Below are positions 219 through 42,146 of a stretch of DNA of 64,000 nucleotides, in pieces. Below the pieces are notes generated by a model. That model did not search any database and had not been told where the DNA came from. It worked only from the letters and a program-made list of their open reading frames with translations. The stretch comes from Pseudomonadales bacterium. Lineage in GTDB: Bacteria > Pseudomonadota > Gammaproteobacteria > Pseudomonadales > Ketobacteraceae. Every line of letters begins with the position of its first letter. Within the stretch, counting starts at the first letter, position 1. The DNA is taken from positions 62,001 through 126,000 of the forward strand of contig NZXG01000040.1 in NCBI GenBank assembly GCA_002701845.1. Direction: 5' to 3'. A program made the position numbers and the translations under genes.

Positions 219-239
219 AGATTGGGGGCAATAACGGAT

Positions 240-9356: not shown

Positions 9357-9361
9357 GCGTT

Positions 9362-10351: not shown

Positions 10352-10367
10352 CGGCGGGAGTATTAGC

Positions 10368-11422: not shown

Positions 11423-13351
11423 ATGTGCGGAATAGCGGGGTTTACCCGATTCAAAACCGGCCGGGGCGATCAGGCATTGCTCCAGCAAATGGGCCAGGTG
11501 ATTCTTCATCGCGGCCCGGATGCCGGTGGTGAATATCTGGATGATGAGGTGGGCCTGTGCCATCGTCGCCTGAGCATCATTGATCTTTCCGCCGCTGGCA
11601 ACCAGCCCATGCATTCCGTGGACGGCAAGCTGGTTATTGTGTTCAACGGCGAGATCTACAACTTCCAGCCGCTACGGCAGGAATTACTGGCGCAGGGCTA
11701 TGCATTCGCATCCCGCACCGACACCGAAGTACTCATGGCCCTGTACCAGCGTGACGGCGCCGACATGGTCACCAAGATCAACGGCATGTTCGCCTTTGCC
11801 ATCTGGGACCGGGAGCAGCGGACTCTGTTTCTGGCCCGGGACCGGCTGGGTAAGAAGCCCTTGTATTATTATCCCAGCGACGATGGGGTGGTGTTTGGGT
11901 CTGAATTGAAATCCCTGATGCAGATGCCTGGCGTGCCACGCCGTATCCGCGCCGATGCCGTCTACGACTTTTTCGCTTATCAGTATGTGCCGGACCCCAA
12001 AACCATTTTTGAGGATATTTACAAACTGGAGCCGGGGCACACACTGACGGTGACGCCGGAGGGTATAACCCGTCAGCAATACTGGAACCTGTCTTTTCAG
12101 CATCCAATAGCCCTGGACACCGGTACCGGGGCGAAGGGCAACCCCGCCCGGAGTGAGACGCAGATTGCCGATGAACTGCTGAACCTGATCCGGGATGCGG
12201 TGGCCAGTCGCATGATCAGTGATGTTCCCTTGGGCGCATTTCTCAGTGGCGGCGTGGATTCCAGCGGCGTGGTGGGTTTGATGGCCCAGTCCAGCCCCAA
12301 GCCGGTGACCACCTGCTCCATTGGCTTTGATTCGCAAGAGTTTGATGAAGTGGATTTCGCCCGGGAGATCGCCCGCCAGTTTAAAACCGATCATCATGAA
12401 TTCACCGTCAGGGAAAACGTACCGGCCAATCTGGAGCGGATCGCGGCTTTCTTCGACGAACCCTTTGCCGACCCCTCCCTGGTACCCACCTATTTCGTCT
12501 CGCAACTGGCGCGTCAGCAGGTGACCGTGGCCCTGGCGGGGGATGGCGGTGACGAAGACTTTGCCGGCTACGCCAAGTACGCGGTGGACGCCATGGAAAA
12601 TCGCCTGCGTAACCGGGTGCCCGGCTTTGTGCGGCATAAGATCATGCCTGCCCTGGCACGGCTGTTGGCCGGCGCGGGCAATCCGTTATTGCGCAAGGCC
12701 CATACTCTTTGCACCACTCTGAGCCGGGATCCGGCCTACGGTTTCTTCCTCACCAATTCCTTTTTTCGTCAGCACCTCTGGGATGATCTGGTTACCGACT
12801 CTTTCAGCGCCCGGCTGAAAGACTATCATCCCGCCGATATCACCCTGCGCCATTATCAGGAGGCCCCCGCGGAGGACCATCTGTCCCGCATTCTTTACAC
12901 CGATTTTAAAACCTATCTGCCGGGCGATATTCTGGTGAAGGTGGACCGGATGAGTATGGCCAACTCCCTGGAGGTACGGGCGCCGCTGCTGGACTATCAG
13001 GTAGTGGAGTACGCGGCGAAAATTCCCTCGGCCCTGAAGCTGAACAACGGCGATAAGAAATATATTCTCAAACGGGCCTTCAGCAAACTGTTAAGCCACG
13101 ACACGCTTTATCGCAAGAAGATGGGGTTCTCGGTGCCGCTGGCGGATTGGCTGCGCCATGAAATCAAAGATCAGGCGGAAGACTGGCTGTTCAACTCGCC
13201 GGCGGGGGTGCGGGATTACTTCAAGCTGAACCGTTTGCGGCAAATCTGGGATCAGCACCAGTCCGGTCAGCAGGATTACAGCAGCGAACTCTGGAGCATG
13301 GTGATGTTTCAGTTGTGGTTCAATCGCTACGGGGTGGAGCCCTCCCCATGA
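11423..13351 (+). CDS. XrtA-associated asparagine synthetase-like amidotransferase
   Basis: This 642-residue protein has the class II glutamine amidotransferase domain with catalytic Cys2 (MCGIAGFTRF) and the RGPDAGGEY and RRLSIIDL motifs. It continues with an AsnB-like ATP-pyrophosphatase domain with the P-loop LSGGVDSSGVVG near residue 270. It matches the TIGR03108-type amidotransferase of exosortase A loci, which may amidate a uronic acid or other carboxylate in the exopolysaccharide rather than make free asparagine. It starts 17 bases after the FemAB-like gene, and its stop overlaps the next ATG. Full length, with no missing motif seen. Confidence 0.92.
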   Translation: MCGIAGFTRFKTGRGDQALLQQMGQVILHRGPDAGGEYLDDEVGLCHRRLSIIDLSAAGNQPMHSVDGKLVIVFNGEIYNFQPLRQELLAQGYAFASRTDTEVLMALYQRDGADMVTKINGMFAFAIWDREQRTLFLARDRLGKKPLYYYPSDDGVVFGSELKSLMQMPGVPRRIRADAVYDFFAYQYVPDPKTIFEDIYKLEPGHTLTVTPEGITRQQYWNLSFQHPIALDTGTGAKGNPARSETQIADELLNLIRDAVASRMISDVPLGAFLSGGVDSSGVVGLMAQSSPKPVTTCSIGFDSQEFDEVDFAREIARQFKTDHHEFTVRENVPANLERIAAFFDEPFADPSLVPTYFVSQLARQQVTVALAGDGGDEDFAGYAKYAVDAMENRLRNRVPGFVRHKIMPALARLLAGAGNPLLRKAHTLCTTLSRDPAYGFFLTNSFFRQHLWDDLVTDSFSARLKDYHPADITLRHYQEAPAEDHLSRILYTDFKTYLPGDILVKVDRMSMANSLEVRAPLLDYQVVEYAAKIPSALKLNNGDKKYILKRAFSKLLSHDTLYRKKMGFSVPLADWLRHEIKDQAEDWLFNSPAGVRDYFKLNRLRQIWDQHQSGQQDYSSELWSMVMFQLWFNRYGVEPSP

Positions 13352-27588: not shown

Positions 27589-29058
27589 ATGAGCAAAGTA
27601 AACACGGCTGTAATCTTCTCGGCATTGGGGCAATATGCCACTCAGATTATCAGCTTTGTCACCATTGTTTTTCTCGCAAGGATTCTGACTCCCGCCGAGA
27701 TCGGTATGTTTGCCATCGCAGGGTCCACCATTATGATTGCCGGAGAACTAAGGACTTTCGGGATCACTCAGTATCTGGTGCGGGAAAAAGAATTAACCCG
27801 GGAAAAAACTCAGGCTGTTTTAGGGCTGGCCGTGGGTATTTCCTGGTTCCTGGGGTTGATCGTCGTAGTTGCCGCACCCTTCGTAGCAGACTTTTATGCA
27901 GAACCCGCTTTGAAGTGGTTGTTATGGATACTGAGCGTGACATTCTTTGTGAGTCCATTTACCAGTATCGCGGGCGGCCTGTGGACCCGGGAGTTAAACT
28001 TTCGGCCGATTTTCATTCGTAATCTGATCAGCGCCGGCGTGAATGGGGGAGCATCCATTTCTTTGGTGTTAATGGGTTACAGCTACTACGGCCTTGCCGT
28101 TGGTGCCATCCTCGCACTGCTATCAGAATTGATTGTAACGATTATCTATAACCCCAAAAATGGCGCCTGGATACCGAAATTCCACCGGGTCCCCGGATTG
28201 TTGCAAGTGGGCTTTTATATAAGCCTGACCGGTATGTTTTCCAGGTTTTCAGAAGGGATACCCGATCTGGTTATCGGCCGTTTCAGCTCCACTGCCAGTG
28301 TTGGCTTGTTCTCCAGGGGGCTGGGCGCCATTTTATTCATTAAACGCTTGCTGGTGCAGGCAGTTGGCCCAGTGGTTTTGCCTCATTTGTCTGAAGTTCG
28401 CAGGAGCGGGGGCTCAGTGGCGGGTGCTTATCTTAAGGCGATCAATTTGCTGGTAGTGGTGCTGTGGCCGGTGATGGCGGTTGCCAGTGCCGCCGCCTAT
28501 CCAATGATCCGGCTTTTGTTTGGTGATCAATGGGATGCCTCCATACCACTGACTTCGATTTTGGCGCTTTGGGCCATGCTGACCTATGCTCATTATTTTG
28601 GCAACGCGGCGCTGATAGCGGTTGATCATGAGAAGCTGATGTTCCAGATCGGACTTGTCTGTTGTGGTATTTTGCTCATTGCGGTGGCGGCCGGCGCTGC
28701 CACATTGTCATTGGAAAATGTAGCCTGGGCAATGGTTATCGCGGGGCTGTTTGAGGCGGTTGTCTATGTCTGGGCTCTGGCCAAGGCGATTGATTTGAAA
28801 GTGAAAGATTTATTTCAGACGCTGACTCCAAATCTGTTCATCGCGTTCTGCTGTTGGGCTGTGACCAAGCTGCTGGATTATATGGTGGTTTTCGAAGAGC
28901 AGTCCGCCTGGTTTTCCATTGCGGTGATTGCTCCAACTCTGGTAGTGACCTGGTTGGGTCTGTTAATTCTGATGAAACATCCTGCAGTCGATGTGTTGGT
29001 GAGTATGATGCCCGGTGTGGCAGCAAAAATAGGGCTGAAGTCCAATACTCCAACGTAA
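27589..29058 (+). CDS. Wzx-type polysaccharide flippase (MOP superfamily), first copy
   Basis: This 489-residue protein has about fourteen hydrophobic helices, beginning VIFSALGQYATQIISFVTIV and FLARILTPAEIGMFAIAG. SSTASVGLFSRGLGAILFIK and LPHLSEVRRSGG are internal landmarks shared with the second flippase at 40698. Family members move undecaprenol-linked repeat units across the inner membrane. The ATG at 27589 has a poor ribosome-binding site. Its presence with a Wzy/ligase-type protein points to Wzx/Wzy-like assembly. It is 136 bases upstream of the cysteine-module gene. Confidence 0.87.
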   Translation: MSKVNTAVIFSALGQYATQIISFVTIVFLARILTPAEIGMFAIAGSTIMIAGELRTFGITQYLVREKELTREKTQAVLGLAVGISWFLGLIVVVAAPFVADFYAEPALKWLLWILSVTFFVSPFTSIAGGLWTRELNFRPIFIRNLISAGVNGGASISLVLMGYSYYGLAVGAILALLSELIVTIIYNPKNGAWIPKFHRVPGLLQVGFYISLTGMFSRFSEGIPDLVIGRFSSTASVGLFSRGLGAILFIKRLLVQAVGPVVLPHLSEVRRSGGSVAGAYLKAINLLVVVLWPVMAVASAAAYPMIRLLFGDQWDASIPLTSILALWAMLTYAHYFGNAALIAVDHEKLMFQIGLVCCGILLIAVAAGAATLSLENVAWAMVIAGLFEAVVYVWALAKAIDLKVKDLFQTLTPNLFIAFCCWAVTKLLDYMVVFEEQSAWFSIAVIAPTLVVTWLGLLILMKHPAVDVLVSMMPGVAAKIGLKSNTPT

Positions 29059-29194: not shown

Positions 29195-30226
29195 ATGCCT
29201 CGTAGCCAGTTATCAAAGGAAACCAGTTTGGGTCTCAAGGCCGGTGATTGGGTAACCGTTCGCTCCAAGGAAGAGATTCTAGCTACCCTGGATAGTCGTG
29301 GCAGAATGGATGATATGCCTTTTCAGCCTGAGATGTGGGAATTTTGCGGGAAAAGGCTGAAGGTTGCGAAAACCGCTCACAAAACCTGCGATACCACTGT
29401 ACATAACACAGGGGGCAGGAAAATATATGACGCCGTTCACCTGGAGGGTGCCCGCTGTGATGGCGGCCTGCACGATGGGTGCCAGGCGGATTGCGTGTTC
29501 TTCTGGAAAGAGGCCTGGCTGAAGCGGGAGCAGGGTGCAAATCCTTCAATTCCTTCCACTGCAAATCCTTGTACGGAGGAACAGGTAATGCAAGCCCGTT
29601 TCACTGAGGACAGTACTGAGGATGACCCTACATGGGTATGTCAGACGACAGCCATTTATGATTTCAGCGAATTTCTGCCCTGGTGGGACATTCGCCAGTA
29701 CTTTAAGGATGTGGCTAGTCGAAACCATAGTTTCTGGCATATTTTCAAATTGATCCTGCGCCAGGGCTATCGGAAGTTTATATATATTGGGCCGGGTTAC
29801 CGATTGAAGATCGACCTCTACAACAAGTGGCAGAAGTTAACGAATGGCGAGCCTCTGCCCATGATTGCTGGGAAAATTGAAAGTGGTGGAAAAACCCCCA
29901 CCGAAGTTTTGAATTTACAGCCAGGCGATCTTGTTGAAGTGAAATCGGTGGATGAGATCGAGGAAACAATTACCCAGGATGGATTCAATCGCGGCATGCG
30001 TTACGACCTGGAGATGAACAAATACACCGGAAAACGATATCGGGTACAGGACCGGGTAACAAAGCTGATTCACGAAAAAACCGGCAAAATGGTGACTATG
30101 AAATCCCCCTGTATTAAGTTGGAAAACGTGTATTGCCGGGCTGAATGTACGGAAAAACGGCTTGGTTGCCCCCGGGCTTCCAATACCTACTGGCGGGAAA
30201 TCTGGCTCAAAAAAGTGGACGAATGA
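29195..30226 (+). CDS. Protein with two diverged cysteine-rich modules, function unknown
   Basis: This 343-residue soluble protein has no signal peptide. Residues ~17-110 and ~244-339 are two copies of one module. Each starts GDxVxVxSxxEI, has an M-x4-GKRxxV-type core, and ends in W(K/R)Ex WLK (WKEAWLK and WREIWLK). Module 1 has cysteines at 51, 65, 88, 96 and 100 plus His62 and His82; module 2 keeps cysteines at 306, 314, 318 and 325. The 133-residue linker holds FLPWWDIRQYFKDVASRNHS and IYIGPGYRLKIDL. The cysteine/histidine pattern suggests metal or iron-sulfur binding. I recall similar single-module uncharacterised proteins but no assigned function. GAGGA upstream fixes ATG 29195. Its TGA overlaps the ATG of the alginate-lyase-like gene. 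Confidence 0.7.
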   Translation: MPRSQLSKETSLGLKAGDWVTVRSKEEILATLDSRGRMDDMPFQPEMWEFCGKRLKVAKTAHKTCDTTVHNTGGRKIYDAVHLEGARCDGGLHDGCQADCVFFWKEAWLKREQGANPSIPSTANPCTEEQVMQARFTEDSTEDDPTWVCQTTAIYDFSEFLPWWDIRQYFKDVASRNHSFWHIFKLILRQGYRKFIYIGPGYRLKIDLYNKWQKLTNGEPLPMIAGKIESGGKTPTEVLNLQPGDLVEVKSVDEIEETITQDGFNRGMRYDLEMNKYTGKRYRVQDRVTKLIHEKTGKMVTMKSPCIKLENVYCRAECTEKRLGCPRASNTYWREIWLKKVDE

Positions 30227-31389
30227 GCTGGATTGCCTCCCTGCCTGCACGGGTTTTTGTGCTGGGACTCGTCCTCTGTGCTCCCAGCGTCTTCGGAAAG
30301 ATGACCAGCGGACCCAACATTTTGCTTGCAGCGGATGAAATCTCGGCTCTAGCGGAGTCGGTACAAAAAAGTAATGAGGCTGCAGCAATGCTGCGCGCGA
30401 TGCGTGAGGATGCTGACAGGTACTTGGCAGCTCCTCCGCCCACCGTGGTGAGTAACGGGGGGCAGGGGGACGAACACGGATACTATACAGAGCTGCCCTA
30501 CTGCGGTTGGTTTAATTTCTGGGGGCTGTGGGGTGATTCCTGCCGGGATGGCGAAATCAATCCGGATGCGGATCGTGAGGATTACAATCAGGCGCGGCGG
30601 ATGGCCCGGGAAACGGTGGTGTTGGCATTGACCTTTCGCTTGCTGGGTGAAGCGGATTACGGCCATGCCGCGGCCCGCAATATCCGGGTTTGGACGATTG
30701 ATTCCGACAAGTATCTGAGGCCCCAGTTTACAACCTCCCAGTCTTATATTGAGCTTTGCGTCACACAGATTGCCACTATCTATGCCATCAGTCTGCTGTG
30801 GGAGACGGATTTATTCTCCGCCACGGAGCGTGGCGCCATTGAATCCTGGGTGGCTCAGTGGGGCAACTCCATAGAATCCTGGCAGCGGAGCAATAATTTT
30901 GAGGACTGGCGCATTGCCATGCGTTTGGCAATCTATGGTTTTACCGGCAATGCAAACAAGCGGCACATCGCAGTCAGTGATTTTAAGCGGCGGATTAAAG
31001 AAGTGGTGGGTGATCAGGGGGAGTTGCTGCAGGAACTGAACAGGACCAAATCCCTTGAGTATTCGCTGTTTGCGTTGAATGCCATGGCCCACTCAGCAGA
31101 GATTGCCCGGCATCAGGGAATCGATTTATACAATTACACCGATGAACGTGGTGTGGGCCTGAAAAAAATCTTTGATTACCATCTGCCTTTCGCTATGGAA
31201 AAGCGCTCCACGCAGTGGCCGTTTCCTCAGAGTCAGGATATTGCGGCCAGCGACGTGGCGGTTTATGAGTTGGCGTTCAGTCGTTATGGGGATCCGGATT
31301 ATCTGGACTTAATACAGCGGTGGGGCCGGCCGCTAATTGAAATCCGTACTTTTCAGTACATCAGCCTAAGTCATGGTTCCCCGTATTAA
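30223..31389 (+). CDS. Secreted alginate-lyase-family protein (PL5-like toroid), catalytic His not conserved
   Basis: This 388-residue protein has a signal peptide (MSWIASLPARVFVLGLVLCA, cut near FG-K). It then has a helical alpha/alpha toroid typical of alginate lyases: DYNQARRMARETVVLALTFR, GHAAARNIRVWTID, TSQSYIELCVTQIATIYAIS, then SNNFEDWRIAMRLAIYGF. In characterised PL5 enzymes the equivalent motif is NNH, with the His catalytic. Here it is N224-N225-F226, so activity may be lost or different. WNLG-type C-terminal pieces appear as SLEYSLFALNAM and FDYHLPFA. The ATG overlaps the stop of the cysteine-module gene, so the pair is coupled. It converges with the PIG-L gene. Confidence 0.78.
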   Translation: MSWIASLPARVFVLGLVLCAPSVFGKMTSGPNILLAADEISALAESVQKSNEAAAMLRAMREDADRYLAAPPPTVVSNGGQGDEHGYYTELPYCGWFNFWGLWGDSCRDGEINPDADREDYNQARRMARETVVLALTFRLLGEADYGHAAARNIRVWTIDSDKYLRPQFTTSQSYIELCVTQIATIYAISLLWETDLFSATERGAIESWVAQWGNSIESWQRSNNFEDWRIAMRLAIYGFTGNANKRHIAVSDFKRRIKEVVGDQGELLQELNRTKSLEYSLFALNAMAHSAEIARHQGIDLYNYTDERGVGLKKIFDYHLPFAMEKRSTQWPFPQSQDIAASDVAVYELAFSRYGDPDYLDLIQRWGRPLIEIRTFQYISLSHGSPY

Positions 31390-31412: not shown

Positions 31413-32075
31413 TCAGACTGATACGATCATTTTCCGCGTATAAAAACCCTCTGCAAACCGGCTCTCCGAATTACATTCCATACCCCTGATGCGCATTATT
31501 GAGGTAAACAAGTCGTCGGTAAACCAGCGCTTGGTTTGCTGGCTGTTATAGGTTTGCTGCAGTTTTTGCACTTTTTCCTTTACCCGCGGTTCGCTGACAG
31601 GGAAAAAGGTGTTCGGGATTCCCAGATCTCCATCCCACTTGGGAATCTCATATTCGAAAATCAGGTGATTGCGAAAGGTGTTCCAGGTCAGCTCACAAAC
31701 CGCACGATGATCCTGGTGCAGGTCTTGGCGATAATGGGTGAAGATGACATCCGGCGTGGCGATTGACTTTTTTAGCTCTTCGAACTTCTCTTTCACCGCT
31801 GTGCCGGAGTAGGGGAGAAAGCCGTCTCTGAAGTCAAATATTCTCAAGTCCAGCCGCGCGGCGTCCCCGGCAAAGGCTTCGGCGCCGGCGGTGGCCTCTG
31901 CTTTACGCTGGGCGTTGGAGCTGAACACCACCCAGGTGATCTCAATATCCGGGTTGGCAGCGAGCAATTCCAGAATGGTGCCGCCACAGCCGATTTCGAT
32001 ATCATCACAGTGAGCACCCAGGCAGAGTACCTGCTTTTTTTGTTTGCCGTCTTGGAAGAGCTTGGGTTGCAGCAT
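31413..32075 (-). CDS. PIG-L family deacetylase
   Basis: This 220-residue LmbE/PIG-L enzyme probably removes an N-acetyl or similar acyl group from a sugar. The zinc motif reads GAHCDDIEIGCGGT (AHxDDxE), and the later HYRQDLHQDHRAV gives the second metal-binding histidines. I start it at 32075, four bases after the stop of the upstream nucleotidyltransferase on the same strand; a longer in-frame start would overlap that gene by ~55 bases. It is the last gene of a four-gene minus-strand operon for an activated sugar. Confidence 0.85.
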   Translation of the reverse strand: MLQPKLFQDGKQKKQVLCLGAHCDDIEIGCGGTILELLAANPDIEITWVVFSSNAQRKAEATAGAEAFAGDAARLDLRIFDFRDGFLPYSGTAVKEKFEELKKSIATPDVIFTHYRQDLHQDHRAVCELTWNTFRNHLIFEYEIPKWDGDLGIPNTFFPVSEPRVKEKVQKLQQTYNSQQTKRWFTDDLFTSIMRIRGMECNSESRFAEGFYTRKMIVSV

Positions 32076-32079
32076 GAGA

Positions 32080-32862
32080 TCAGGTCTCATCCCACACGGC
32101 CCAGGGGCATTCGCCACTGGTGAACAGCTCATCAAAGTTCTGCTTGTCTTTGAAGGTGTCCATACACTTCCAGAAACCTTCGTACTGATACGCCATTAAT
32201 TGATTTTCCGCGATTAATCGCTCGAAAGGCTCGTGTACCAGTTCCTCGCCATCTTTGATGTAATCGAAGATACGTTTCTTGAAAATAAAGAAGCCACCAT
32301 TGACCGTCAGCCCGGTATTGGTCGTGTCCTGAATGCTCTGCACGCTGCCGTCGTCATTCAGACGGACATAGTGAAAGGTCTGCTGGGGTTTGACGCACAG
32401 GAAACAGGCGATCTTGTCGCTGGCTTTGAAGAAATCCAGCATCTTGTCCAGGGGGGCATCGGACAAACCATCGGCATAGTTGGCCATAAACAGATCGTCG
32501 GGCGCCAGGTCATCCAGGTATTTCTCCACCGCCCGCAGCCGCATGCCGATGTTGGAGTTGAGGCCGGTATCGGCGAAGGTGATTTTCCAGTCGTGGATAT
32601 CGGTTTTGATCAATTCGGTTTTGCCGCTTTCCAGAACAAAGTCATTGGACAGGCATTCATTGTAATTAATGAAATAGTCCTTGATGACGTGAGCGTTATG
32701 CCCCAGACACAGGATAAATTCCTTATGACCGAAGTGGGCGTAGTATTTCATCAGGTTCCAGACGATGGGCCGATGTCCGATGGGAACCATGGGCTTGGGA
32801 GTGTTCTCGGAATACTCCCGCAAGCGCATACCCAATCCACCACAAAAAAGTACGACTCTCAT
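32080..32862 (-). CDS. Glucose-1-phosphate cytidylyltransferase-like sugar nucleotidyltransferase
   Basis: This 260-residue enzyme has the N-terminal nucleotide site FCGGLGMRLREYSENTPKPM (Met where Thr/Ser is common) and RPIVWNLMKYYAHFGHKEFI, very like RfbF-type glucose-1-phosphate cytidylyltransferases. GLSDAPLDKMLDFF and NGGFFIFKKRIFDYI follow as in that family, and FWKCMDTFKDK is the C-terminal signature. It would make a CDP-sugar, the entry step for many 3,6-dideoxy and branched-chain sugars. Expression is with the SAF-oxidoreductase (23 bases upstream) and PIG-L genes. Confidence 0.85.
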   Translation of the reverse strand: MRVVLFCGGLGMRLREYSENTPKPMVPIGHRPIVWNLMKYYAHFGHKEFILCLGHNAHVIKDYFINYNECLSNDFVLESGKTELIKTDIHDWKITFADTGLNSNIGMRLRAVEKYLDDLAPDDLFMANYADGLSDAPLDKMLDFFKASDKIACFLCVKPQQTFHYVRLNDDGSVQSIQDTTNTGLTVNGGFFIFKKRIFDYIKDGEELVHEPFERLIAENQLMAYQYEGFWKCMDTFKDKQNFDELFTSGECPWAVWDET

Positions 32863-32884
32863 TATTCGTTCGCCCCTGTTTGAT

Positions 32885-34174
32885 TCATTGAAAAAATGTT
32901 CGGATCATGTCCTGCCGTAAGCGGTCGATCTGTCGCCCGGGTGGCAGTTCAACATCGGCATAGGTAATCGGTGTGTCTTTGGTGACGTCGCGTTTCAGCC
33001 GGCAGTCGACGCTGACCCCCATGGGCAGCAGGCCGGCGTGCATGGCGGTTTCAAAATTTTCCAGTTCGGCGAAGGCGCAATAGCCGCCGATACCATCCAG
33101 GGTTTCCCCGGCTTTCAGGTCTTTTTTTGCGATCGTGACCGCATCGGCGTAAGGCCGGCCTACTGGCGTAACCGCGGCATCGTGCAGCAAGACGGCGCGG
33201 CAAACGGTAATGGGAATTTCGAGCTGAGGCAGGTGGAAGGGGGTATAAAACACATAAAACGGGCCCTCACCCATCTTCAGGTATTTCAAGTAATCCCGGG
33301 TCATGGGCTGCTCAGTATGGGCAATCACAAAAGCGCCGGTACTGGGCGCCGCACCCACCAGAAAGTCCACGATGCCCTCCCCGGGGATGAAACTGCCGGC
33401 GGGGAAATGGGCCAGGCATTCCCGTACGTCGTCGCAGCGGACACCGTGCATGCCCCGTACTCTAACACCAAAACCCAGCGAATTTGCAGTAACCGCCAGC
33501 TCCATGGAAAGTTTGGTCCCATCCACGAAGGAGGTGACCATCTCGGGCTTCTGATTGAAGTGCTGGCGGGCAAACGCGGCCTGGGTGGCCGGGGTGCGGT
33601 AGGGATCGTAAAAGCCTTTGAGGTTACCAGCCCCAACCACCTCCAGCCCCATGGTGCGAACGTGACGGGCCAGGTTGGTGGCTACACCCGGCTCGTCGCC
33701 GTCGGTGTTGGTGAAGATCACTCCGCGATCATCCGCCAGCCTTTTTAACAGCGGGCCCACCGTGGCATCCACCTCGCAGTTGGCGGCGACGATGTGTTTG
33801 CCAGCGGCGATGGCCTGGAGCGCGATGTCCGCGCCGTAAGCCACATCGCCGGTGGCTTCGATCACCGCTTCGATTTCCGGGCACGCAAAAGCCACCGCCG
33901 GATCGCTTGTAACGCAGTAGTGCCTATCCCCAATGGCGCTGGATAGTTGCTCTGGCTCATGGATGGTTTTGTAGTGAGCCACACCGGCGGTCTCCAGTGC
34001 GCTGGCCGCGTGCTCCAGGGTCCGGTTGACGATCACGGCAAGCTGGATGGCGGGAAATGAGTTGATAATGTGAGACGCAATATGCCGGGCACTGAAGCCC
34101 GCCCCGATCAGCGCAATGCGGATGGGGCCGCAGTCTGCGACCCTTTTTTCAATGGCTTTGTCTACGATGATCAT
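32885..34174 (-). CDS. Homoserine-dehydrogenase-like NAD(P) oxidoreductase with C-terminal SAF domain
   Basis: This 429-residue protein has a Rossmann motif IALIGAGFSARHIASHI near residue 19, VIEATGDVAYGADIALQAIA and GKHIVAANCEVDAT, then a middle domain (GDEPGVATNLARHVRTMG, GAGNLKGFYDPYRTPATQA). A C-terminal SAF-like region follows (TIAKKDLKAGETLDGIGGYC, GLLPMGVSVDCRLKRDV). Proteins of this layout are often encoded in nucleotide-sugar clusters with a cytidylyltransferase and a C-methyltransferase. The exact reaction is not established to my knowledge; oxidation or reduction of a sugar intermediate is inference. It sits 22 bases after the SDR gene stop. Confidence 0.8.
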   Translation of the reverse strand: MIIVDKAIEKRVADCGPIRIALIGAGFSARHIASHIINSFPAIQLAVIVNRTLEHAASALETAGVAHYKTIHEPEQLSSAIGDRHYCVTSDPAVAFACPEIEAVIEATGDVAYGADIALQAIAAGKHIVAANCEVDATVGPLLKRLADDRGVIFTNTDGDEPGVATNLARHVRTMGLEVVGAGNLKGFYDPYRTPATQAAFARQHFNQKPEMVTSFVDGTKLSMELAVTANSLGFGVRVRGMHGVRCDDVRECLAHFPAGSFIPGEGIVDFLVGAAPSTGAFVIAHTEQPMTRDYLKYLKMGEGPFYVFYTPFHLPQLEIPITVCRAVLLHDAAVTPVGRPYADAVTIAKKDLKAGETLDGIGGYCAFAELENFETAMHAGLLPMGVSVDCRLKRDVTKDTPITYADVELPPGRQIDRLRQDMIRTFFQ

Positions 34175-34196
34175 GCGTCTTCCAGCTGGCTGGCCG

Positions 34197-35222
34197 TTAA
34201 ATCTGCCAGTGCAGGTTGGTGTCCAGCTTGCCTTCCTCGATCAGGTGCTTGATATGGGCAATGCGCATGTACTTTATGCCTTCATAATCGTCCCGGTTGA
34301 GGCCGAATTTTTTGTAAGACTCATAGCACTGTTCCACACCCATTTTGGCGGTCCACTTGGTTTCAAAATCCGGGAACACACGGTGGATCTTGTCAAAGTT
34401 AACCCGGTAACAGCGGGTGTCGGGCCCCGCACCCTCGGCAATTTCAATCTCACAGTTTGGCACCACTTCTTTTACGAAGCGGGCCAGGTCGATCATCTGA
34501 TAGTTTTCAGAATTACTGCCCACGTTCACCGCCAGGTTGTGAATCACCTCCCGCTCGGCCTTCAGGGCGCAGATCACCGCCTGGGAGATATCTTCGATAT
34601 GCGCCAGCGGCCGCCAGGGGGTACCGTCGCTTTTCAGCAGGATGGTGCCGGTGGTGTAGGCCCAGGCCACCAGGTTGTTGATCACCAGGTCGAAGCGCAT
34701 CCGGGGGGACACTCCGTATGCCGTTGCGTTGCGCAGAAACACCGGGCTGAAGTTGTCATCCGCCATGGGGCTCACGTCCCGCTCCACATAAACCTTGGAC
34801 TTGGCGTAGGGGGTCACCGGATTAAAGTCAGCGGTTTCATCCAGCACGTCATCGCCGGCCTTGCCATACATGCTGCAGGAGGAAGCGAACAGGAACCGGC
34901 GCACGCCCACTTCTTTGGCCATCTCGGCGATCCGCACGGAGGCTTTATAGTTGATATCGTAGGTCAGGTCGGCGTTGATATTGCCCAGAGGGTCATTGGA
35001 CAGCGCTGCCAGGTGGACAACGGCGTCAAAGCCTTTCAGATCGTCCTTGGTGACATCCCGCACATCTTTCTCAATGGTGGGTACCTCCACCATGCCATCA
35101 CCATAGGTGCAGTAGCGATACAGGTCGGAATCCAGGCCGGTGACCTCGAATCCTTCTTGCAACAACATAGGCACCATAACAGTGCCGATAAAACCCTTAT
35201 GCCCCGTGACCAAGACCTTCAT
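34197..35222 (-). CDS. NAD-dependent epimerase/dehydratase (extended SDR)
   Basis: This 341-residue extended short-chain dehydrogenase has the NAD site VLVTGHKGFIGTVMVPML (GxxGxxG), the VVHLAALSNDPLG strand, ASSCSMYG with the catalytic Ser and the YAKSK tetrad, and RNATAYGVSPRMR plus HIEDISQAV in the sugar-binding half. It is the first gene of the minus-strand sugar operon. It could be the 4,6-dehydratase or an epimerase/reductase of the pathway; the sequence does not decide. AGGAGT seven bases upstream and a promoter at 35254-35281 support the start. Confidence 0.87.
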   Translation of the reverse strand: MKVLVTGHKGFIGTVMVPMLLQEGFEVTGLDSDLYRYCTYGDGMVEVPTIEKDVRDVTKDDLKGFDAVVHLAALSNDPLGNINADLTYDINYKASVRIAEMAKEVGVRRFLFASSCSMYGKAGDDVLDETADFNPVTPYAKSKVYVERDVSPMADDNFSPVFLRNATAYGVSPRMRFDLVINNLVAWAYTTGTILLKSDGTPWRPLAHIEDISQAVICALKAEREVIHNLAVNVGSNSENYQMIDLARFVKEVVPNCEIEIAEGAGPDTRCYRVNFDKIHRVFPDFETKWTAKMGVEQCYESYKKFGLNRDDYEGIKYMRIAHIKHLIEEGKLDTNLHWQI

Positions 35223-35562
35223 GCGGTACTCCTGATTAAAAAAGATACAATTTATTCTAGTTTGAGTGCCGGTTTATACAATGAAACCAAGGCAGTTTAA
35301 TGTCTGCCGGCGCACTATTGTAATGAGAATCCAAAGCCATGATGATAGGTGGTTTGGTTAATTTTTTACACCAAATTCGTTATTTTGGTAATAAGCCGGG
35401 CCCAATGAAAAGTAGCCTCGTGTCCGATTAACGATTCTGCAAACGGTGGCCATGACAGGCGCTTTAACGTCATCGTTTTGCCAACCCTAAGTGGCTTAGT
35501 GCCGCATCCAGATGCCCGCCAGAATTCCCGTTTCGCCGCTGCGCTATCGAGGACGGTGATCC
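35223..35562. other. Intergenic region, 340 bases
   Basis: This separates two minus-strand genes and contains the promoter at 35254-35281. ACCAAA at 35370-35375 pairs with TTTGGT at 35384-35389, but no T tract follows on the minus strand. No small gene was recognised. Confidence 0.4.
35254..35281 (-). promoter_or_regulatory. Sigma-70-like promoter of the sugar operon
   Basis: Read on the minus strand, TTGTAT (35281-35276) and TAGAAT (35259-35254) are 16 bases apart. The -10 matches five of six consensus bases and the -35 three of six. The predicted start is about 25 bases before the ATG of the SDR gene. Confidence 0.45.
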
Positions 35563-36444
35563 TTACTGTTGCAGAAAGGCCATGAATTCCTTGCCCAGCT
35601 GCTGCCGGTTCCAGTTCATTCTCCGCAGCAGCAGGCTCGCAATGCGCTGTTTCTGTTGCCAGGAAATGGGGGCCCGAAACGCCGCCTTGAAGTACTCATA
35701 AAAAGATCGCCACAACGGCAGGATCATCTTCTTCTTTGATGGATCCCAGAACACCACCTGTTTCTCATCATCATGGCGATCGGCGCTGTTGCTCTCCGGG
35801 TGCATGCGCCGGTTGAACAGATATTCCTGCACCTCGAAGAACTTGCCATACAGGCAGAGTTCCCCCACCAGATTCAGGTCGGAAGAGGTGTAGGCCCCCA
35901 TTAGCGCGGTATGCGACAGGGGCTCCCGCCGGATCAGGCCATACATCACGTTCTGGTAACCGATGCTGTCCAGCAGTGCCTGCAGCCGCGCCACCGGTTC
36001 ATCCTGCATCAAATGCAGCTTGTCATCATAATGCTCGAGAAAAACGCCGTTTTCATCGATGATATTGGTCTTGCAGTAGGCCAGCACCACATCCGGTTGC
36101 TCATCCAGTACTTCAATACAGCGCTCGATGAGGGTGGGCTCGATGGGATCGTCGCCATTCTGCCAGCGGAAATACTCGGACGAGGCAGGGGTGAAACAAC
36201 GCTCGTAATTACCCGGTGCGCCCACATTAACCTCATTCTTGATGTACTTGATGCGCGAATCCCGGGCGACGTAATCCTTGCAAATTTCCTGGGTGCGATC
36301 GGTGGAGGCGTTGTCCGAAATATAGAGAATGAAGTCCTCATAGGTCTGGGCGAGTACCGTCTGCAGGGTATGCTCCAGATACCTTTCAGCGTTGTACAGC
36401 GGCATCCCAATACTGACTCGAGGTGTCGGTGATGTTGTTGTCAT
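35563..36444 (-). CDS. GT2 glycosyltransferase
   Basis: This 293-residue GT-A enzyme has VSIGMPLYNAERYLEHTLQT, FILYISDNASTDRTQEIC and YFRWQNGDDPIEPTLIERC as the nucleotide and metal sites. It has no membrane helices. It is on the same strand as the sugar operon but separated from it by 340 bases with a separate promoter, so it may be a distinct transcript. It could use the sugar made by the neighbouring operon, which is inference from position only. Confidence 0.86.
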   Translation of the reverse strand: MTTTSPTPRVSIGMPLYNAERYLEHTLQTVLAQTYEDFILYISDNASTDRTQEICKDYVARDSRIKYIKNEVNVGAPGNYERCFTPASSEYFRWQNGDDPIEPTLIERCIEVLDEQPDVVLAYCKTNIIDENGVFLEHYDDKLHLMQDEPVARLQALLDSIGYQNVMYGLIRREPLSHTALMGAYTSSDLNLVGELCLYGKFFEVQEYLFNRRMHPESNSADRHDDEKQVVFWDPSKKKMILPLWRSFYEYFKAAFRAPISWQQKQRIASLLLRRMNWNRQQLGKEFMAFLQQ

Positions 36445-36857
36445 AGGCTAAAAGCTTCAGATGGCCCCAAAATGATGCAAATGCGATTACGCCAAGTGAT
36501 ACCCGGTTTCCGGCAACCAGTATCAGCTAATGGTTAGCTTAGCTCAAGCCCCGCGCGCTGAGAACCTGGAGCCGGTCCGGGAAACAATAAACCCGCAGTC
36601 GTTCACGCAACCACCCAATTATTTACAATTTGAATCTGCATCAGTGCTTGAGACCGGCTCGGTAAAAACAGCTATAATCAGGCAGTATTTGGTTGGGGCT
36701 CATTGGGGCGTGAGGCATGTGGTAACGGCCTCCACAGCGGGCTTCAGCCGGCACTTGTAAGCTACATTTACAGGCTGCCGTTACATTGATACATATTACG
36801 TATTACATATAGTCACCTGTTATTCACTTATCCATACAATTACTACGAGCCGCTGCT
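36445..36857. other. Divergent intergenic region, 413 bases
   Basis: This holds the plus-strand promoter at 36786-36813 for the methyltransferase gene and must hold the minus-strand promoter for the GT2. The section 36770-36850 is AT-rich. No coding frame with a ribosome-binding site was seen. Confidence 0.4.
36786..36813 (+). promoter_or_regulatory. Sigma-70-like promoter of the C-methyltransferase gene
   Basis: TTGATA (36786-36791) and TATAGT (36808-36813) are separated by 16 bases. Four of six and five of six bases match consensus. A start near 36820 leaves a leader of about 38 bases before ATG 36858. A small TACGTA palindrome lies in the spacer. Confidence 0.55.
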
Positions 36858-38120
36858 ATGAAAGACGCCATTGCACCCAAGCCCCATGGTCAGAAATCAG
36901 GATGCCGGTACTGCGGTGCCCCCCTGCAACACACGTTGGTGGATCTGGGTATGTCGCCGCTGTGTCAGACGCACATTACACCTGAGCAACTCAATCACAT
37001 GGAGCCGTTCTACCCGTTGCATGCCTACGTGTGTGATCAGTGCTGGCTGGTGCAGTTGGAAGAGTTTGTGGCGCCGGGGGATATCTTTTCCGAGTATGCC
37101 TACTTTTCTTCATTTTCCGACAGCTGGGTGGATCATGCCCGGCGTTACGCGGAAAAGATGATAGACCGCTTTGGCTTGAACGAGTCCAGTCAGGTCGTCG
37201 AAATTGCCAGTAATGACGGCTACCTGCTGCAACATTTTGTGCGGCGCAGTGTGCCGGTGCTGGGCATTGAGCCCGCAGCCAATATTGCCAAGGTGGCTAA
37301 CGAAAAAGGCGTCCGCTCCATTGTTCGCTTTCACGGCCGGGAGACCGCCAAAGAGGTGACTGAAACCTATGGCCAGGCGGACCTGTTGCTGGGGAATAAC
37401 GTGCTCGCCCATGTGCCGGATCTGAACGATTTCGTAGCCGGAATGAAGGCCCTGTTGAAACCGGACGGGGTGATCACCATGGAGTTCCCCCATCTGTATC
37501 GACTGATGGAAGAGAATCAGTTTGACACCATTTACCACGAACACTTTTCCTATTTTTCATTTATCGCGGTGCAGCAGGTGTTTGCGGGCCATGGCCTGCA
37601 GATTTTTGATGTGGAGGAGCTGCCCACCCACGGGGGCTCACTGCGCATCTATGCCCAACATGCCGGATTCGAGCGTCCGGTATCCGCAGCCGTTACTGAG
37701 TTGCGCGAGCGGGAATTAAAAGAGGGCTATGACACCCTGGAGCGTTACGCCAATTTCAAAAACCAGGTGGAGGAAACCAAGCGCAAACTGCTGGCGTTTC
37801 TTATCGAGGCGAAGAATCAGGGCAAAAAGATCGTGGGCTATGGGGCGCCCGGCAAGGGCAATACACTGCTTAACTATTGCGGTATTCGCACGGATTTTCT
37901 GGACTTTACCGTGGACCGTAATGATTACAAGCAGAATAAATTTACCCCGGGCACCCATATCCCCATTCTTGACCCGGAAGCCATTCGTGAAGCCCGGCCG
38001 GATTATATTCTGATTCTGCCCTGGAACCTGAAAGAGGAAATCGCCAGTCAGGTGGCTTATACCCGGGAGTGGGGCTGTAAATGCGTGGTGCCGATCCCCG
38101 AAGTTACAGTGCTGGATTGA
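36858..38120 (+). CDS. Sugar C-methyltransferase (TylCIII/NovU-type)
   Basis: This 420-residue SAM-dependent enzyme has the full three-part layout. The N-terminal zinc-binding region has CRYCGAPL and CDQCWLVQL. The central Rossmann methyltransferase has VVEIASNDGYLLQHF and LLGNNVLAHVPDL, with the YHEHFSYFS segment found in sugar 3-C-methyltransferases. The C-terminal part is GYGAPGKGNTLLNY (Methyltransf_14). It probably places a methyl branch on a 4-keto-deoxy sugar nucleotide. With the cytidylyltransferase, SDR and SAF protein it implies a branched-chain sugar in the polymer. It converges with the VCBS gene, 13 bases apart. Confidence 0.88.
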   Translation: MKDAIAPKPHGQKSGCRYCGAPLQHTLVDLGMSPLCQTHITPEQLNHMEPFYPLHAYVCDQCWLVQLEEFVAPGDIFSEYAYFSSFSDSWVDHARRYAEKMIDRFGLNESSQVVEIASNDGYLLQHFVRRSVPVLGIEPAANIAKVANEKGVRSIVRFHGRETAKEVTETYGQADLLLGNNVLAHVPDLNDFVAGMKALLKPDGVITMEFPHLYRLMEENQFDTIYHEHFSYFSFIAVQQVFAGHGLQIFDVEELPTHGGSLRIYAQHAGFERPVSAAVTELRERELKEGYDTLERYANFKNQVEETKRKLLAFLIEAKNQGKKIVGYGAPGKGNTLLNYCGIRTDFLDFTVDRNDYKQNKFTPGTHIPILDPEAIREARPDYILILPWNLKEEIASQVAYTREWGCKCVVPIPEVTVLD

Positions 38121-38133
38121 GTGTGGAGCGCGG

Positions 38134-40464
38134 TTAGCGGGGTTGCCCCGGGTTTTCGTACAGCAGCACCCGGTGGTGACTCCAGCCGATGGAGACGATG
38201 TCGTTGTCGCCATCGTTATCGATATCCACGCTGAGCGCGCCGTCGTGATGTTCGTCCCCCTGATAGACCAGGTGTGGGGCCCATTGGTCGCCACCGGTGT
38301 TCTCCAGCCAGAACAAACGGGCGGCGTCCGCTGCTTTCAGATTGTGTTCTCCCACCACGATATCCTGATCGAGATCAGCGTCGATATCGGCCACTCCGAG
38401 ACTCATGGGTCCGATGAGCTGCCGGCTGACGGTATGCTCCCGCCAGCTATCCGGCGGGGTATCCGTTGCTTCATACCAGGCCAGTAATCCCGGTTCGCTG
38501 ATGGCCTGATAACCCACCACCACATCCATCCGGCCATCGCCATTGATATCGGCCACCTCATTGCGATCGGGATCCAGATGATTGTGGATAACGGTGTGCC
38601 GCTGCCAGCGGTTGGTGGTCCGCTCCTGGTGTAGCCACTGCGTGCCCAGCAGGATGTCCTGAAGTCCATCCTCATCCAGATCGGTGATGCTGAGGTCCTC
38701 GGCCTGGGAAAATTCCGACAGTTGTTTCAGCTTCCAGGTACCGGTGGCCGGGTCGCGGGGAATGATCAATGCCTCCAGTGGCATGGCGGGATCATGCCAG
38801 GATAGTACCAGCTTGTTATCGTCACTTTGGCCACGGCGAGCGGGCAACAGGCCGGCGCCCTGGAGAAAATCCCCGCTGCTGGATTCGATATTTGAGTGTA
38901 ATTTGAAGTGGCCGTGGCCGTCGTTTTCCCCCCAGACAAAGCCGGTGATCCGGCGGTAGGGGTCGCGGTCGCTGAGTCCCAGTTTGAACAGGGCCCGGTC
39001 CACCAGGGTGGGTAAGGTCGGCAGGTCGCGCCAGTCCGTGGCCACAAAATCCAGGTCGCCGTCCCGATCCAGATCCTCAATCACGGCCACGTTGCCTGCC
39101 CGGTTGCCCAGGGCATGCCGCTGCCAGACTTGCAAGGGGGGCTCCGGCTGCTGATACCAGTATCCGCCGGTAACGATATCCTTGCGGGAATCTCCGTTGA
39201 GGTCCGCGGCGTAAACAAATAACGCCTTATCGGGGCGCTGGTGGTCGATGACGTGGCGCTGCCATAGTTGTTGGTCGGAGGCCTGATTCAGCCACACCCT
39301 TACGGGATAATCTGCCTCCGGCTCTTCGACCTGCCAGTTAACCCCCACCAGATCCACGTCCAGGTCGTTATCCAGATCGCCGGCCTGCAGGCTGTGGCCG
39401 CCTACCGTGGATATAACGTGTTTTTGCCAGGGTTGTCCCGTCTGGTTTTCGTACCACTTCACCTCGTCCGGGTCGGCGCCCTGGTGCATTTGCGCGGTAA
39501 GCACGTCCATATCCCCGTCCCGATCCACATCCGCCGCCGCGATAAAGTGATAGACCGCTTCCACATCGTTGTCTATCACGTGCTGCTTCCAATCTTTACT
39601 GTCACCATGGGGCGCCTCAAACCAGGCAATCCGGTAACGCTGTCCGGCTTCCTCGGCGGGGCTCAGCACCACATCCGGCTGCTGGTCACCGTTGAAATCC
39701 GCGACGCTGATATAGACATCGGGCCATTCCCAGTCCGTGGCATATGAGTGTGCTTTCCAGTTCGGTTCCGGTGTGCCGCAGAATGGGTTCTCCAGCCAGA
39801 CGGCGTTCACCACGATATCCGAACATCCGTCCCCATTCATGTCCGCCATGGCCAACCCCTCGCCCTGGGGTGCTGGCACTGGTTGCGGCAACCAGCGGCC
39901 TTCAGGCTGTTGCAGCCAGAGATCCACATAATCCCCGGAGTCGTGGCCAAACAGCCGCTGATCCCGGGCAATGACATCCGCCAGCCCATTCCCATCGATA
40001 TCGGCCACTTCCACATCATGGTAACGTTTGTCCGTGACCTGGTGGGCAACCCAATCCGGATTGCGCAGCCAGAAGATCCCCTCATCGGCAGTGATCAGCA
40101 CGTCCTGTCTACCGTCTTGATCCATATCCGCCACCGCCAGATCCGTGCGGATGTGAAAATCCTCGCTGATCAGATGCTTTTCCCAGGTGGGGCTTTGGTA
40201 CCAAACCAGTGTGCCACCCCGGGGATAGGGTTTGAGGCCCAGTTTATTCCAGACTTTTTGCATAAAGCCGGGTTTCACGGAGAGGTGGCCACCCACCACA
40301 ATGTCCGGACGACCGTCGCCGTTAATGTCGCCGAGAGTTTTGCCCCAGGGGGCAAGGGGCCCCTGGGGATCGATGACAGTTTCATGAAAGCTGCCGTTGG
40401 CATTACAGAATAAAGGTGAAGCGAACAAAAGTGCTGCGAGGAAAGCGATTCGACAGGTGTTCAT
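38134..40464 (-). CDS. Secreted FG-GAP/VCBS-repeat beta-propeller protein
   Basis: This 776-residue protein has a signal peptide (MNTCRIAFLAALLFASPLFC, cut near NA). About thirteen calcium-binding DxDxDG-like loops follow, for example GDINGDGRPDIVVG, ADMDQDGRQDVLI, EDLDRDGDLDFVA, ADINGDGRMDVVVG and VDIDNDGDNDIVS. Between them WYQSP, WLENP and WQRHVI strands alternate, as in integrin-alpha/VCBS propellers. It is probably exported and may bind calcium and polysaccharide. No catalytic motif was found. The start at 40464 is chosen because it begins the signal peptide; an upstream in-frame start would add a 30-residue polar leader. Confidence 0.82.
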   Translation of the reverse strand: MNTCRIAFLAALLFASPLFCNANGSFHETVIDPQGPLAPWGKTLGDINGDGRPDIVVGGHLSVKPGFMQKVWNKLGLKPYPRGGTLVWYQSPTWEKHLISEDFHIRTDLAVADMDQDGRQDVLITADEGIFWLRNPDWVAHQVTDKRYHDVEVADIDGNGLADVIARDQRLFGHDSGDYVDLWLQQPEGRWLPQPVPAPQGEGLAMADMNGDGCSDIVVNAVWLENPFCGTPEPNWKAHSYATDWEWPDVYISVADFNGDQQPDVVLSPAEEAGQRYRIAWFEAPHGDSKDWKQHVIDNDVEAVYHFIAAADVDRDGDMDVLTAQMHQGADPDEVKWYENQTGQPWQKHVISTVGGHSLQAGDLDNDLDVDLVGVNWQVEEPEADYPVRVWLNQASDQQLWQRHVIDHQRPDKALFVYAADLNGDSRKDIVTGGYWYQQPEPPLQVWQRHALGNRAGNVAVIEDLDRDGDLDFVATDWRDLPTLPTLVDRALFKLGLSDRDPYRRITGFVWGENDGHGHFKLHSNIESSSGDFLQGAGLLPARRGQSDDNKLVLSWHDPAMPLEALIIPRDPATGTWKLKQLSEFSQAEDLSITDLDEDGLQDILLGTQWLHQERTTNRWQRHTVIHNHLDPDRNEVADINGDGRMDVVVGYQAISEPGLLAWYEATDTPPDSWREHTVSRQLIGPMSLGVADIDADLDQDIVVGEHNLKAADAARLFWLENTGGDQWAPHLVYQGDEHHDGALSVDIDNDGDNDIVSIGWSHHRVLLYENPGQPR

Positions 40465-40580
40465 AGCGCAATTCCCGGAAGTCGCTGGAACAGGCGACAG
40501 TTTACTATCGTTCGTGTTGCAATTCATCTTGCTTTGCGCCGGCCGGGGTGCCACTCTTGCGTCTCGCCGCTCTGGTCTGC

Positions 40581-40697: not shown

Positions 40698-42146
40698 ATG
40701 TCATTAGTTCGTAAAGCTGTGTTTCTTTCAGCACTGAATCAATACGCGGTGCAGGCAATCAGTATAGTAACCACTGCGGTGATCTCCCGCTTGCTGGCCC
40801 CGGAAGAGGTCGGCGTGTTTGCCGTGGCGGTTTCTATCTGTTTTCTGGCCTCATCGATTCGCTCTTTCGGAGTGGGCGAATACGTTGTGCGGGAAAAAAC
40901 CCTCGACAAACAGTCGATGAAACCCGTGCTGGGTGTGATGCTGACCATGTCCTGGGGGCTGGGGCTGCTGTTGATGGCGGCTGCGCCTTTTATCGCCAGA
41001 TTTTATGCACAGCCGGAATTGACCTATGTCCTCTGGATCATCGTCGGGCAGTTCTTTCTGGCGCCTTATATCAGTGTGCCTTATGCCTTGTTGGCGCGGG
41101 AACTGTCCTTTGATCTGATTATGAGGGTGGACCTGATGGGTAGCCTGGTCAGATCACTGGTGTCCATGGCGCTGGCGTATCAGGGCTTCAGTTACTATTC
41201 ACTGGCCTGGGGGGTGCTGTGCGGGGTATTGACTCAGTTCCTGATTATTTCCCTGATCAGACCCCAGCTTATGCCCTGGATGCCGTCCCTCCATGGCATT
41301 GGCAGAATTGCCCGGGCCGGCGTTTCCATCACCCTCAGTAAAACACTGGAGAGCTCTTCGGAAAACAGCAGCGATCTGATTCTGGGCCGCCTGGCGAATA
41401 TGAACGATGTGGGTATTTTCTCCAGGGGGCTGGGGTTAATACTGTTTTTGCAGAATCTGCTGGTGAAGGCGGTGAGCCCGGTGGCTTTGCCCCACCTGGC
41501 CCAGGTCAAACGGGAGGGGGGCGCAGTGGGGGAGGCATATCTGCAAGCCGTGTCTCTGGTGGGCGCCTTTGCCCTGCCGTTGTTCGCGGTGGTCAACATC
41601 GCGGATTATTCCATGATACATGCCCTGTTCGGTGACCAATGGGATCAGTCGGTGCAGATTGCATCGGCACTGACCTTTTGGGCCATGTTTCAGGCGCTGC
41701 ATTGTTTTATGCGTCAGGCACTGCTGACCGCGGGTAAGGAGCGCTGGGTGTTGATGTATGAAGTGGTGTCTTTTGTCAGCAAGGCGGCGCTAATCGTGCT
41801 GTTAATTCCGCGGGGTTTGGAGTCCGTGGCCTGGGGTATTGTGATCTCCGGCGCCATTGATTTCGCGATGGCGTCGCTGTTGATTTATCTGGCCTATGGC
41901 ATCACTCCTTTACAGGTGCTGCAGCGCATGGGGTCCAATATCCTGGTGGCGCTGTTGTGCTGGACCGTGCTTAAAGCGTCCACGGTGTATCTGGATCTGC
42001 ATGCCATGAACCCATGGCTGGCATTGCTGGTGATTGGTGCGATGATGGTGCCGGTGTGGCTGGTGGGCATTCATATTACCAGGAGCCCGGCCCGAAGCCT
42101 GGTGTTTGAATTGCTGGGGAAATGGAAACGACCGGGGCGGCCTTGA
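40698..42146 (+). CDS. Wzx-type polysaccharide flippase, second copy
   Basis: This 482-residue MOP-superfamily protein has about fourteen helices. It is clearly paralogous to the flippase at 27589: both have NQYA/GQYA at the start, IFSRGLG/LFSRGLG, LPHLAQVKREGG/LPHLSEVRRSGG and FGDQWD. Codon usage looks more GC-rich than in the first copy. Two flippases in one locus suggest two lipid-linked products or a replaced older gene. Its stop codon lies in the loop of an 11-bp hairpin (42132-42159). Confidence 0.87.
   Translation: MSLVRKAVFLSALNQYAVQAISIVTTAVISRLLAPEEVGVFAVAVSICFLASSIRSFGVGEYVVREKTLDKQSMKPVLGVMLTMSWGLGLLLMAAAPFIARFYAQPELTYVLWIIVGQFFLAPYISVPYALLARELSFDLIMRVDLMGSLVRSLVSMALAYQGFSYYSLAWGVLCGVLTQFLIISLIRPQLMPWMPSLHGIGRIARAGVSITLSKTLESSSENSSDLILGRLANMNDVGIFSRGLGLILFLQNLLVKAVSPVALPHLAQVKREGGAVGEAYLQAVSLVGAFALPLFAVVNIADYSMIHALFGDQWDQSVQIASALTFWAMFQALHCFMRQALLTAGKERWVLMYEVVSFVSKAALIVLLIPRGLESVAWGIVISGAIDFAMASLLIYLAYGITPLQVLQRMGSNILVALLCWTVLKASTVYLDLHAMNPWLALLVIGAMMVPVWLVGIHITRSPARSLVFELLGKWKRPGRP

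Follow-up and report, generated by a model that had tools for sequence, protein, structure and literature searches.

A two-module cysteine-containing protein family associated with a sugar cassette and its apparent exclusion of an aminotransferase-like gene

The window (the whole stretch of DNA analysed here, 64,000 nucleotides from contig NZXG01000040.1 of a Pseudomonadales bacterium) contains at 29195..30226 on the forward strand the gene of a two-module, cysteine-containing protein of 343 aa, which is called P0001 here. The gene starts with the ATG at 29195. A GAGGA element lies eight bases 5' of this ATG, and the alignment with the homolog in locus L002 begins at the methionine equivalent to it. 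The divergence between these two genes is 0.28, 0.20 and 0.64 at the three codon positions, so the reading frame fits a coding gene under selection. A scan for promoters and terminators gave a result no better than shuffled sequences.

Module 1 (residues 11-111; 29225..29527, + strand) and module 2 (residues 238-341; 29906..30217, +) are both predicted SH3-like barrels, and a middle region (residues 112-237; 29528..29905, +) lies between them. The two modules are homologous along their whole length. Their local alignment score is 105, while 2000 shuffles gave a mean of 26.6 (sd 4.5, maximum 53); BLASTP aligns them at an E-value of 7e-12, and hhalign at 3.3e-27 with 8+8 sequences and 1.7e-27 with 18+18 sequences. 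The modules share 29% identity in P0001 and, averaged over the family, about 30%. A previous sequence-only reading of this DNA had described two related modules aligning over their full length, with five cysteines in the first and four in the second, and both the alignment and the counts are borne out. The limits it gave (about 17-110 and 244-339) are slightly short, and those stated above should be used. In a FastTree phylogeny of 40 modules, one branch (length 1.54, support 1.0) parts the 20 first modules from the 20 second modules; the rooted check, False for module 1 and True for module 2, describes this same branch from its two sides. Because a single branch separates the two kinds of module, their duplication is older than the spread of the family. 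No relative with a single module was seen: wherever a genome or plasmid record had module 1, module 2 was there too.

Searches of Pfam, NCBIfam and PADLOC with 20 members and of PHROGs with four proteins returned zero significant matches, in line with the earlier statement that no function is known for the protein. Weak hits were regarded as chance, namely AbrB (0.017 in 4 of 20 members), DPBB_PEX6 (0.017 in 3 of 20), Molydop_binding (0.0058 in 2 of 20), TIGR03366 (0.0022), benB (0.0085) and Cas4d (0.0044), the last three in one member of 20 each, and a PHROG match at 0.011 in one of the four proteins. A viral origin was also considered and rejected, with no relative in the viral contigs searched. 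In the literature searched, no description was found of a P0001-like protein, of its module end motif WKEAWLK, or of the cassette and cluster described below.

The family is rare. P0001 is present in three of the 299 genomes sampled from the phylum, the window's own among them, and a second draw of 398 genomes from this phylum gave two carriers, both already in the first draw. Among 57 relatives scanned, only the window's own genome has the gene (0 of 56 others). A scan of a genome collection yielded 14 loci with 41-66% identity, mainly beta- and gammaproteobacteria by record title, the others being in records titled Gemmatimonadaceae, Fibrobacteres and Acidobacteria. P0001 is also on plasmids, in records from Mesorhizobium (4), Bosea and Nonomuraea, and the family reaches Actinomycetota. 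This rarity and patchiness suggests gene transfer. On a conjugative Bosea plasmid (L016), the P0001 homolog at 9338-10369 lies beside a Wzx gene with no cassette in the stretch, and the P0001-flippase pair may travel as a unit.

A MOP-family flippase (Wzx-like; 27589..29058, +) adjoins P0001 in the window, and the fetched stretch includes a Wzx homolog at 14 of the 20 P0001 loci, one of which is the window. Downstream, an alginate-lyase-family protein with a signal-peptide-like start is encoded at 30223..31389 (+); its gene overlaps that of P0001 by four bases, ATGA, which hold both its ATG (30223) and the TGA of P0001. A sugar cassette follows, and most of its genes recur beside P0001: a PIG-L deacetylase (31413..32135, -; 17 of 20 loci), a sugar nucleotidyltransferase (32080..32862, -; 16 of 20), an SDR sugar epimerase/dehydratase (34197..35222, -; 15 of 20), a family 2 glycosyltransferase (35563..36444, -; some GT2 in 15 of 20) and a C-methyltransferase with Methyltransf_13 and Methyltransf_14 domains (36858..38120, +; 15 of 20). 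The nucleotidyltransferase of the window is nearest to the glucose-1-phosphate cytidylyltransferase model, yet under its cut-off. Many of these loci are covered to 8 kb on either side only; the cassette is absent from the covered stretch in L002 (a 7 kb contig), L011 and L016, and L010 has two cassette genes.

The sequence-only reading had coupled P0001 to the secreted lyase and placed both in polymer handling. The coupling turns out to be specific to the window, which is the only one of the 20 loci with a lyase homolog, and a general functional unit of P0001 and alginate lyase was rejected on this ground. Polymer handling itself is supported by the flippase, polymerase/ligase-like and glycosyltransferase genes here and by the sugar-nucleotide cassette near most relatives. 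Two Streptomyces cassettes with an aminotransferase (see below), L092 (971-4467) and L101, also have an alginate-lyase-family gene, annotated in L092 and present as an 88% homolog in L101; the L092 cassette contains a beta-helix gene too, as does the window.

Other genes of the window deserve mention. Exosortase A is encoded at 222-1757 (+) with a score over the cut-off and an XrtA-type amidotransferase at 11423-13351 (+) with a score below it, and the polysaccharide region therefore seems to belong to an exosortase/PEP-CTERM locus. An FG-GAP repeat protein (38134-40554, -) has homologs close to the cassettes of L012 and L013 (40-43% identity), and a second flippase-like gene (40698-42146, +) shares one ORF cluster with the first flippase.

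Fourteen of the 20 P0001 loci also contain DUF4910. In order to compare, 16 of 25 DUF4910 genomes were used as controls without P0001, leaving out G287 (which has P0001), one 3 kb contig and seven more. At these 16 loci PIG-L was found once, the nucleotidyltransferase and the SDR protein twice each and the C-methyltransferase three times. From this scarcity, the association of P0001 is with this particular cassette and not with DUF4910 generally; one control, L070, has the full cassette without P0001. Of 299 genomes of the phylum, 4 have the cassette PIG-L, and P0001 is in three of these four and nowhere else (Fisher p 9e-7, with the two 299-genome searches, run at equal settings, taken as one draw). 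We read P0001 as a component of this sugar cassette. DUF4910 itself has no match in the whole genome of the window. Between the nucleotidyltransferase and SDR genes, the window has instead a DRL/SAF-domain oxidoreductase (32885..34174, -), found there in one of the 20 loci, the window, at the position that DUF4910 occupies in L004 and L012. The oxidoreductase may be a second case of gene displacement in this pathway.

The cysteines of P0001 are at positions 51, 65, 88, 96 and 100 in module 1, 126 and 149 in the middle region, and 306, 314, 318 and 325 in module 2. In module 1, C51, C65, H82, C88, C96 and C100 are found in all 20 homologs, with the spacing C88-x7-C96-x3-C100. Equally invariant (20 of 20) are C149, Q150, T152, Q168, Y169 and N177 in the middle region and N265-R266-G267, C314, C325 and W337 in module 2. 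Other cysteines of module 2 vary: C306 is present in 16 and C318 in 13 of 20 homologs, and position 278 is cysteine in nine. The sole cysteines that are both equivalent between the modules and invariant are C88/C314 and C96/C325. The invariant set of cysteine and histidine makes a metal site plausible. In the predicted strand order, C51 precedes strand 54-60 and C88 follows the next strand (80-83), a topology in which C51, C88, C96 and C100 could meet; several of the cysteine-bearing loops of the model have a pLDDT of 45-70. The middle region, with two predicted helices (180-197 and 199-215), is more than a plain linker. A transmembrane nature of this region was considered and set aside: over 19 residues its hydropathy peaks at 0.35 in P0001 and at 1.98 in L014, which is not clearly membrane-spanning.

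AlphaFold2 models had a mean pLDDT of 77.9 and a pTM of 0.59 for the whole protein (15 sequences), and 77.2 and 0.72 for module 1 alone. With these models Foldseek found no match at or below 1e-3 among solved structures. For the whole model its best row was nitrile hydratase beta (E 3.3e-3), and module 1 alone came closest to a Mind bomb repeat structure (E 1.2e-2); among BFVD models the best E-value was 1.9e-3 and the named rows were generic SH3-like proteins. A second aligner superposed the Mind bomb repeat on module 1 with Z 7.1 (rmsd 2.4 over 71 residues), where a Z below 8 may reflect no more than a common arrangement, and on module 2 with Z 6.5 (rmsd 2.2 over 69 residues). Ribosomal barrels came next for module 1 at Z about 6. 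Nitrile hydratase beta reached Z 5.1-5.3 (at Z 5.3, rmsd 2.9 over 74 residues), on a level with barrels of PsaE and ribosomal proteins. These fold searches hardly probe the helical middle region. We read both modules as predicted SH3-like barrels without nearer kinship.

Most of the cassettes without P0001 contain a different protein. By tblastn, none of the 20 P0001 loci has a gene for a PLP-dependent aminotransferase-like protein of model NF004856, whereas 15 of the 16 cassettes that lack P0001 do. Twenty-four plasmid records have the cassette PIG-L and no P0001; in 9 of the 15 that were fetched the gene is annotated as 'glutamate-1-semialdehyde 2,1-aminomutase', and the other six are unannotated there. 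Against NF004856 (cut-off 486) three of these proteins reach 696-755 bits, and against hemL (cut-off 527) 219-230 bits. In the whole genomes that carry P0001 (G000, G139, G287 and G609), the best NF004856 matches have 31-34% identity and short partial ones at most 38%. Two of three cassette genomes without P0001 hold a copy of the aminotransferase, at 67% identity in G071 and 63% in G577, and the third, G627, which is fragmented into 230 contigs, has neither gene. Neither gene was found in the cassette of Indioceanicola (L094/L139) either, even over 49 kb.

Clustering of ORFs gave the same picture. P0001 occurs in 18 of the 19 stretches of the first set and in none of the 18 of the second, whereas the aminotransferase is absent from all 19 of the first and present in 15 of the 18; the zero of P0001 follows from the choice of the second set, while the zero of the aminotransferase in the first set was not chosen. 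L002 and L016 were left out, two of the 18 stretches come from one genome (G577), and the P0001 stretch missed by clustering is that of G609, where the gene sits on another stretch that was fetched by itself. Other families split as well, with rfbC in 4 of 19 vs 15 of 18 stretches and a pyruvyltransferase in 0 of 19 vs 9 of 18, so that P0001 and the aminotransferase form the cleanest split and not the sole one. Lineage is a confounder here, as the loci without P0001 are mostly from Alphaproteobacteria and Actinomycetota and the P0001 loci mostly from beta- and gammaproteobacteria. The uncorrected Fisher p of 4e-8 for the exclusion ignores relatedness and is not to be leaned on.

A tree of PIG-L and nucleotidyltransferase was considered for 35 cassettes, 17 with P0001, 16 with the aminotransferase and two with neither; it omits L002, L011 and L016 (no PIG-L or nucleotidyltransferase in the stretch), L010 (no nucleotidyltransferase) and the second or partial copies L135 and L137-L140. 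Its starred branches force at least four changes between P0001 and the aminotransferase. For example, L070 (genome G071), which has the aminotransferase, and the P0001-bearing Mesorhizobium L017 are sisters at a support of 100/97; the cassette proteins of the two are 81-89% identical and rfbC is present in both. Within Actinomycetota, four cassettes with the aminotransferase form a group with L018, which has P0001. Over four independent pairs, the aminotransferase goes opposite to P0001 in 3.4 in average and the same way in none, and the sign test gives a median p of 0.25, with too few pairs to reach 0.05. The exclusion is not significant once corrected for descent.

Compared with the earlier reading, the conserved partner genes and the apparent exclusion of the aminotransferase are new. 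P0001 most likely stands in for the aminotransferase-like step or offers an alternative to it, and from the exclusion we infer that the two proteins have interchangeable roles. The reading we prefer, tentatively and at somewhat less than an even chance, is that P0001 is a cytosolic tailoring protein of a C-methylated-sugar cassette, probably metal-binding, which replaces the NF004856 step. P0001 would then be a soluble protein, presumably located in the cytosol, with two SH3-like barrels and a conserved middle region, and it would fill the place that the PLP-dependent protein has in sister cassettes. The product of the cassette would be a nucleotide-activated sugar with a C-methyl group, destined for a surface polysaccharide. 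C51, C88, C96 and C100 of module 1, together with the module 2 cysteines, probably bind a metal, zinc being the likeliest, and P0001 might act on the activated sugar, or assemble the enzymes acting on it, ahead of the glycosyltransferase and the flippase. A bolder form, in which P0001 is a new two-barrel metalloenzyme that performs the amino-sugar step of the PLP aminotransferase, with a chemistry unprecedented for the fold and by repeated non-orthologous gene displacement, seems to us improbable; we know of no precedent for an SH3-like protein with amino-transfer chemistry.

The main rival is that P0001 is a scaffold or adaptor, whose barrels gather the cassette enzymes or the flippase and whose cysteines hold structural zinc, with no chemistry of its own. 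It is a serious candidate, if on balance an unlikely one. The peptide-binding Mind bomb repeats are among the nearest folds of both modules (Z 7.1 and 6.5), PsaE, a small accessory subunit, is also close, and Wzx accompanies P0001 at most loci and adjoins it even without the cassette on the Bosea plasmid. However, exclusion of an aminotransferase is unexpected for a scaffold, and the invariant polar residues of the middle region resemble a site. Less probable still is that P0001 and the aminotransferase mark two types of polymer which share a precursor sugar, P0001 adding or recognising a different group. The parallel splits of rfbC and pyruvyltransferase would agree with this, as would the differing contexts, with exosortase A in the window and an autokinase with response regulators in Shinella and relatives. 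In the nearest pair, L017 and L070, however, the cassettes are 81-89% identical and rfbC is in both, and the switches occur in both Alphaproteobacteria and Actinomycetota.

P0001 might also be an iron-sulfur or redox protein, perhaps one that carries electrons to the cassette; the sequence-only reading had suggested a metal or Fe-S site. In favour of this are the five invariant cysteines of module 1 with their spacing and the likeness to nitrile hydratase beta and PsaE, whose barrels play an accessory part to proteins of metal binding or electron transfer. We consider the idea quite doubtful, and the least probable of the explanations named here, as the cysteines of module 2 shift by lineage, rather like those of a structural site, and the cassette families identified include no obvious electron-transfer partner. 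With these results, a family that spans several phyla gains a defined set of partners and a testable role. If the swap is true, the fold must have an activity that was not suspected, or else the 'aminotransferase' of the cassette does something besides what its name says.

Among known systems, the Mind bomb SH3 repeat (PF18346, SH3_15) has SH3-like repeats, which the predicted P0001 modules may resemble in fold. Membership in PF18346 was rejected, since the best E-value is 0.02, in 2 of 20 members, and is not significant; the window genome (G000) gave no match at E 0.01 and none of 140 genomes was over the curated cut-off. To our knowledge, Mind bomb repeats do not carry the cysteine set of P0001. 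The C-terminal domain of nitrile hydratase beta (PF02211) may have its SH3-like barrel in common with the P0001 model. A kinship by sequence was rejected here too, as hhalign against 20 fetched domains gave a probability of 1.9-3.7% (local mode), and PF02211 is absent from the Pfam matches of the 20 members (E 0.5) and from G000.

The NF004856 proteins (PRK06209; 'glutamate-1-semialdehyde 2,1-aminomutase'-like PLP proteins) belong to the same cassette as P0001 and to an unrelated protein class. They have an FGKA-type lysine motif, which we take to be that of class III, whereas the P0001 members match no such model.

Another of the closest known systems is that of the DUF4910 (CA_C2195-like) cassettes, which in the available text of PMC4000134 are proposed to make a modified carbohydrate. 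As described there, a nucleotidyltransferase, an epimerase/dehydratase, a glycosyltransferase, a SAM methylase and sometimes an exporter surround an unexplained protein. The nucleotidyltransferase, epimerase, methylase and glycosyltransferase also lie together in the window at 31413-38120, and each is found in 15-16 of the 20 P0001 loci. The window differs in having the DRL/SAF oxidoreductase and no DUF4910, unlike 14 of the 20 loci, and a P0001-like protein goes unmentioned in that part of the paper. P0001 also offers a handle on the unexplained DUF4910 sugar pathway.
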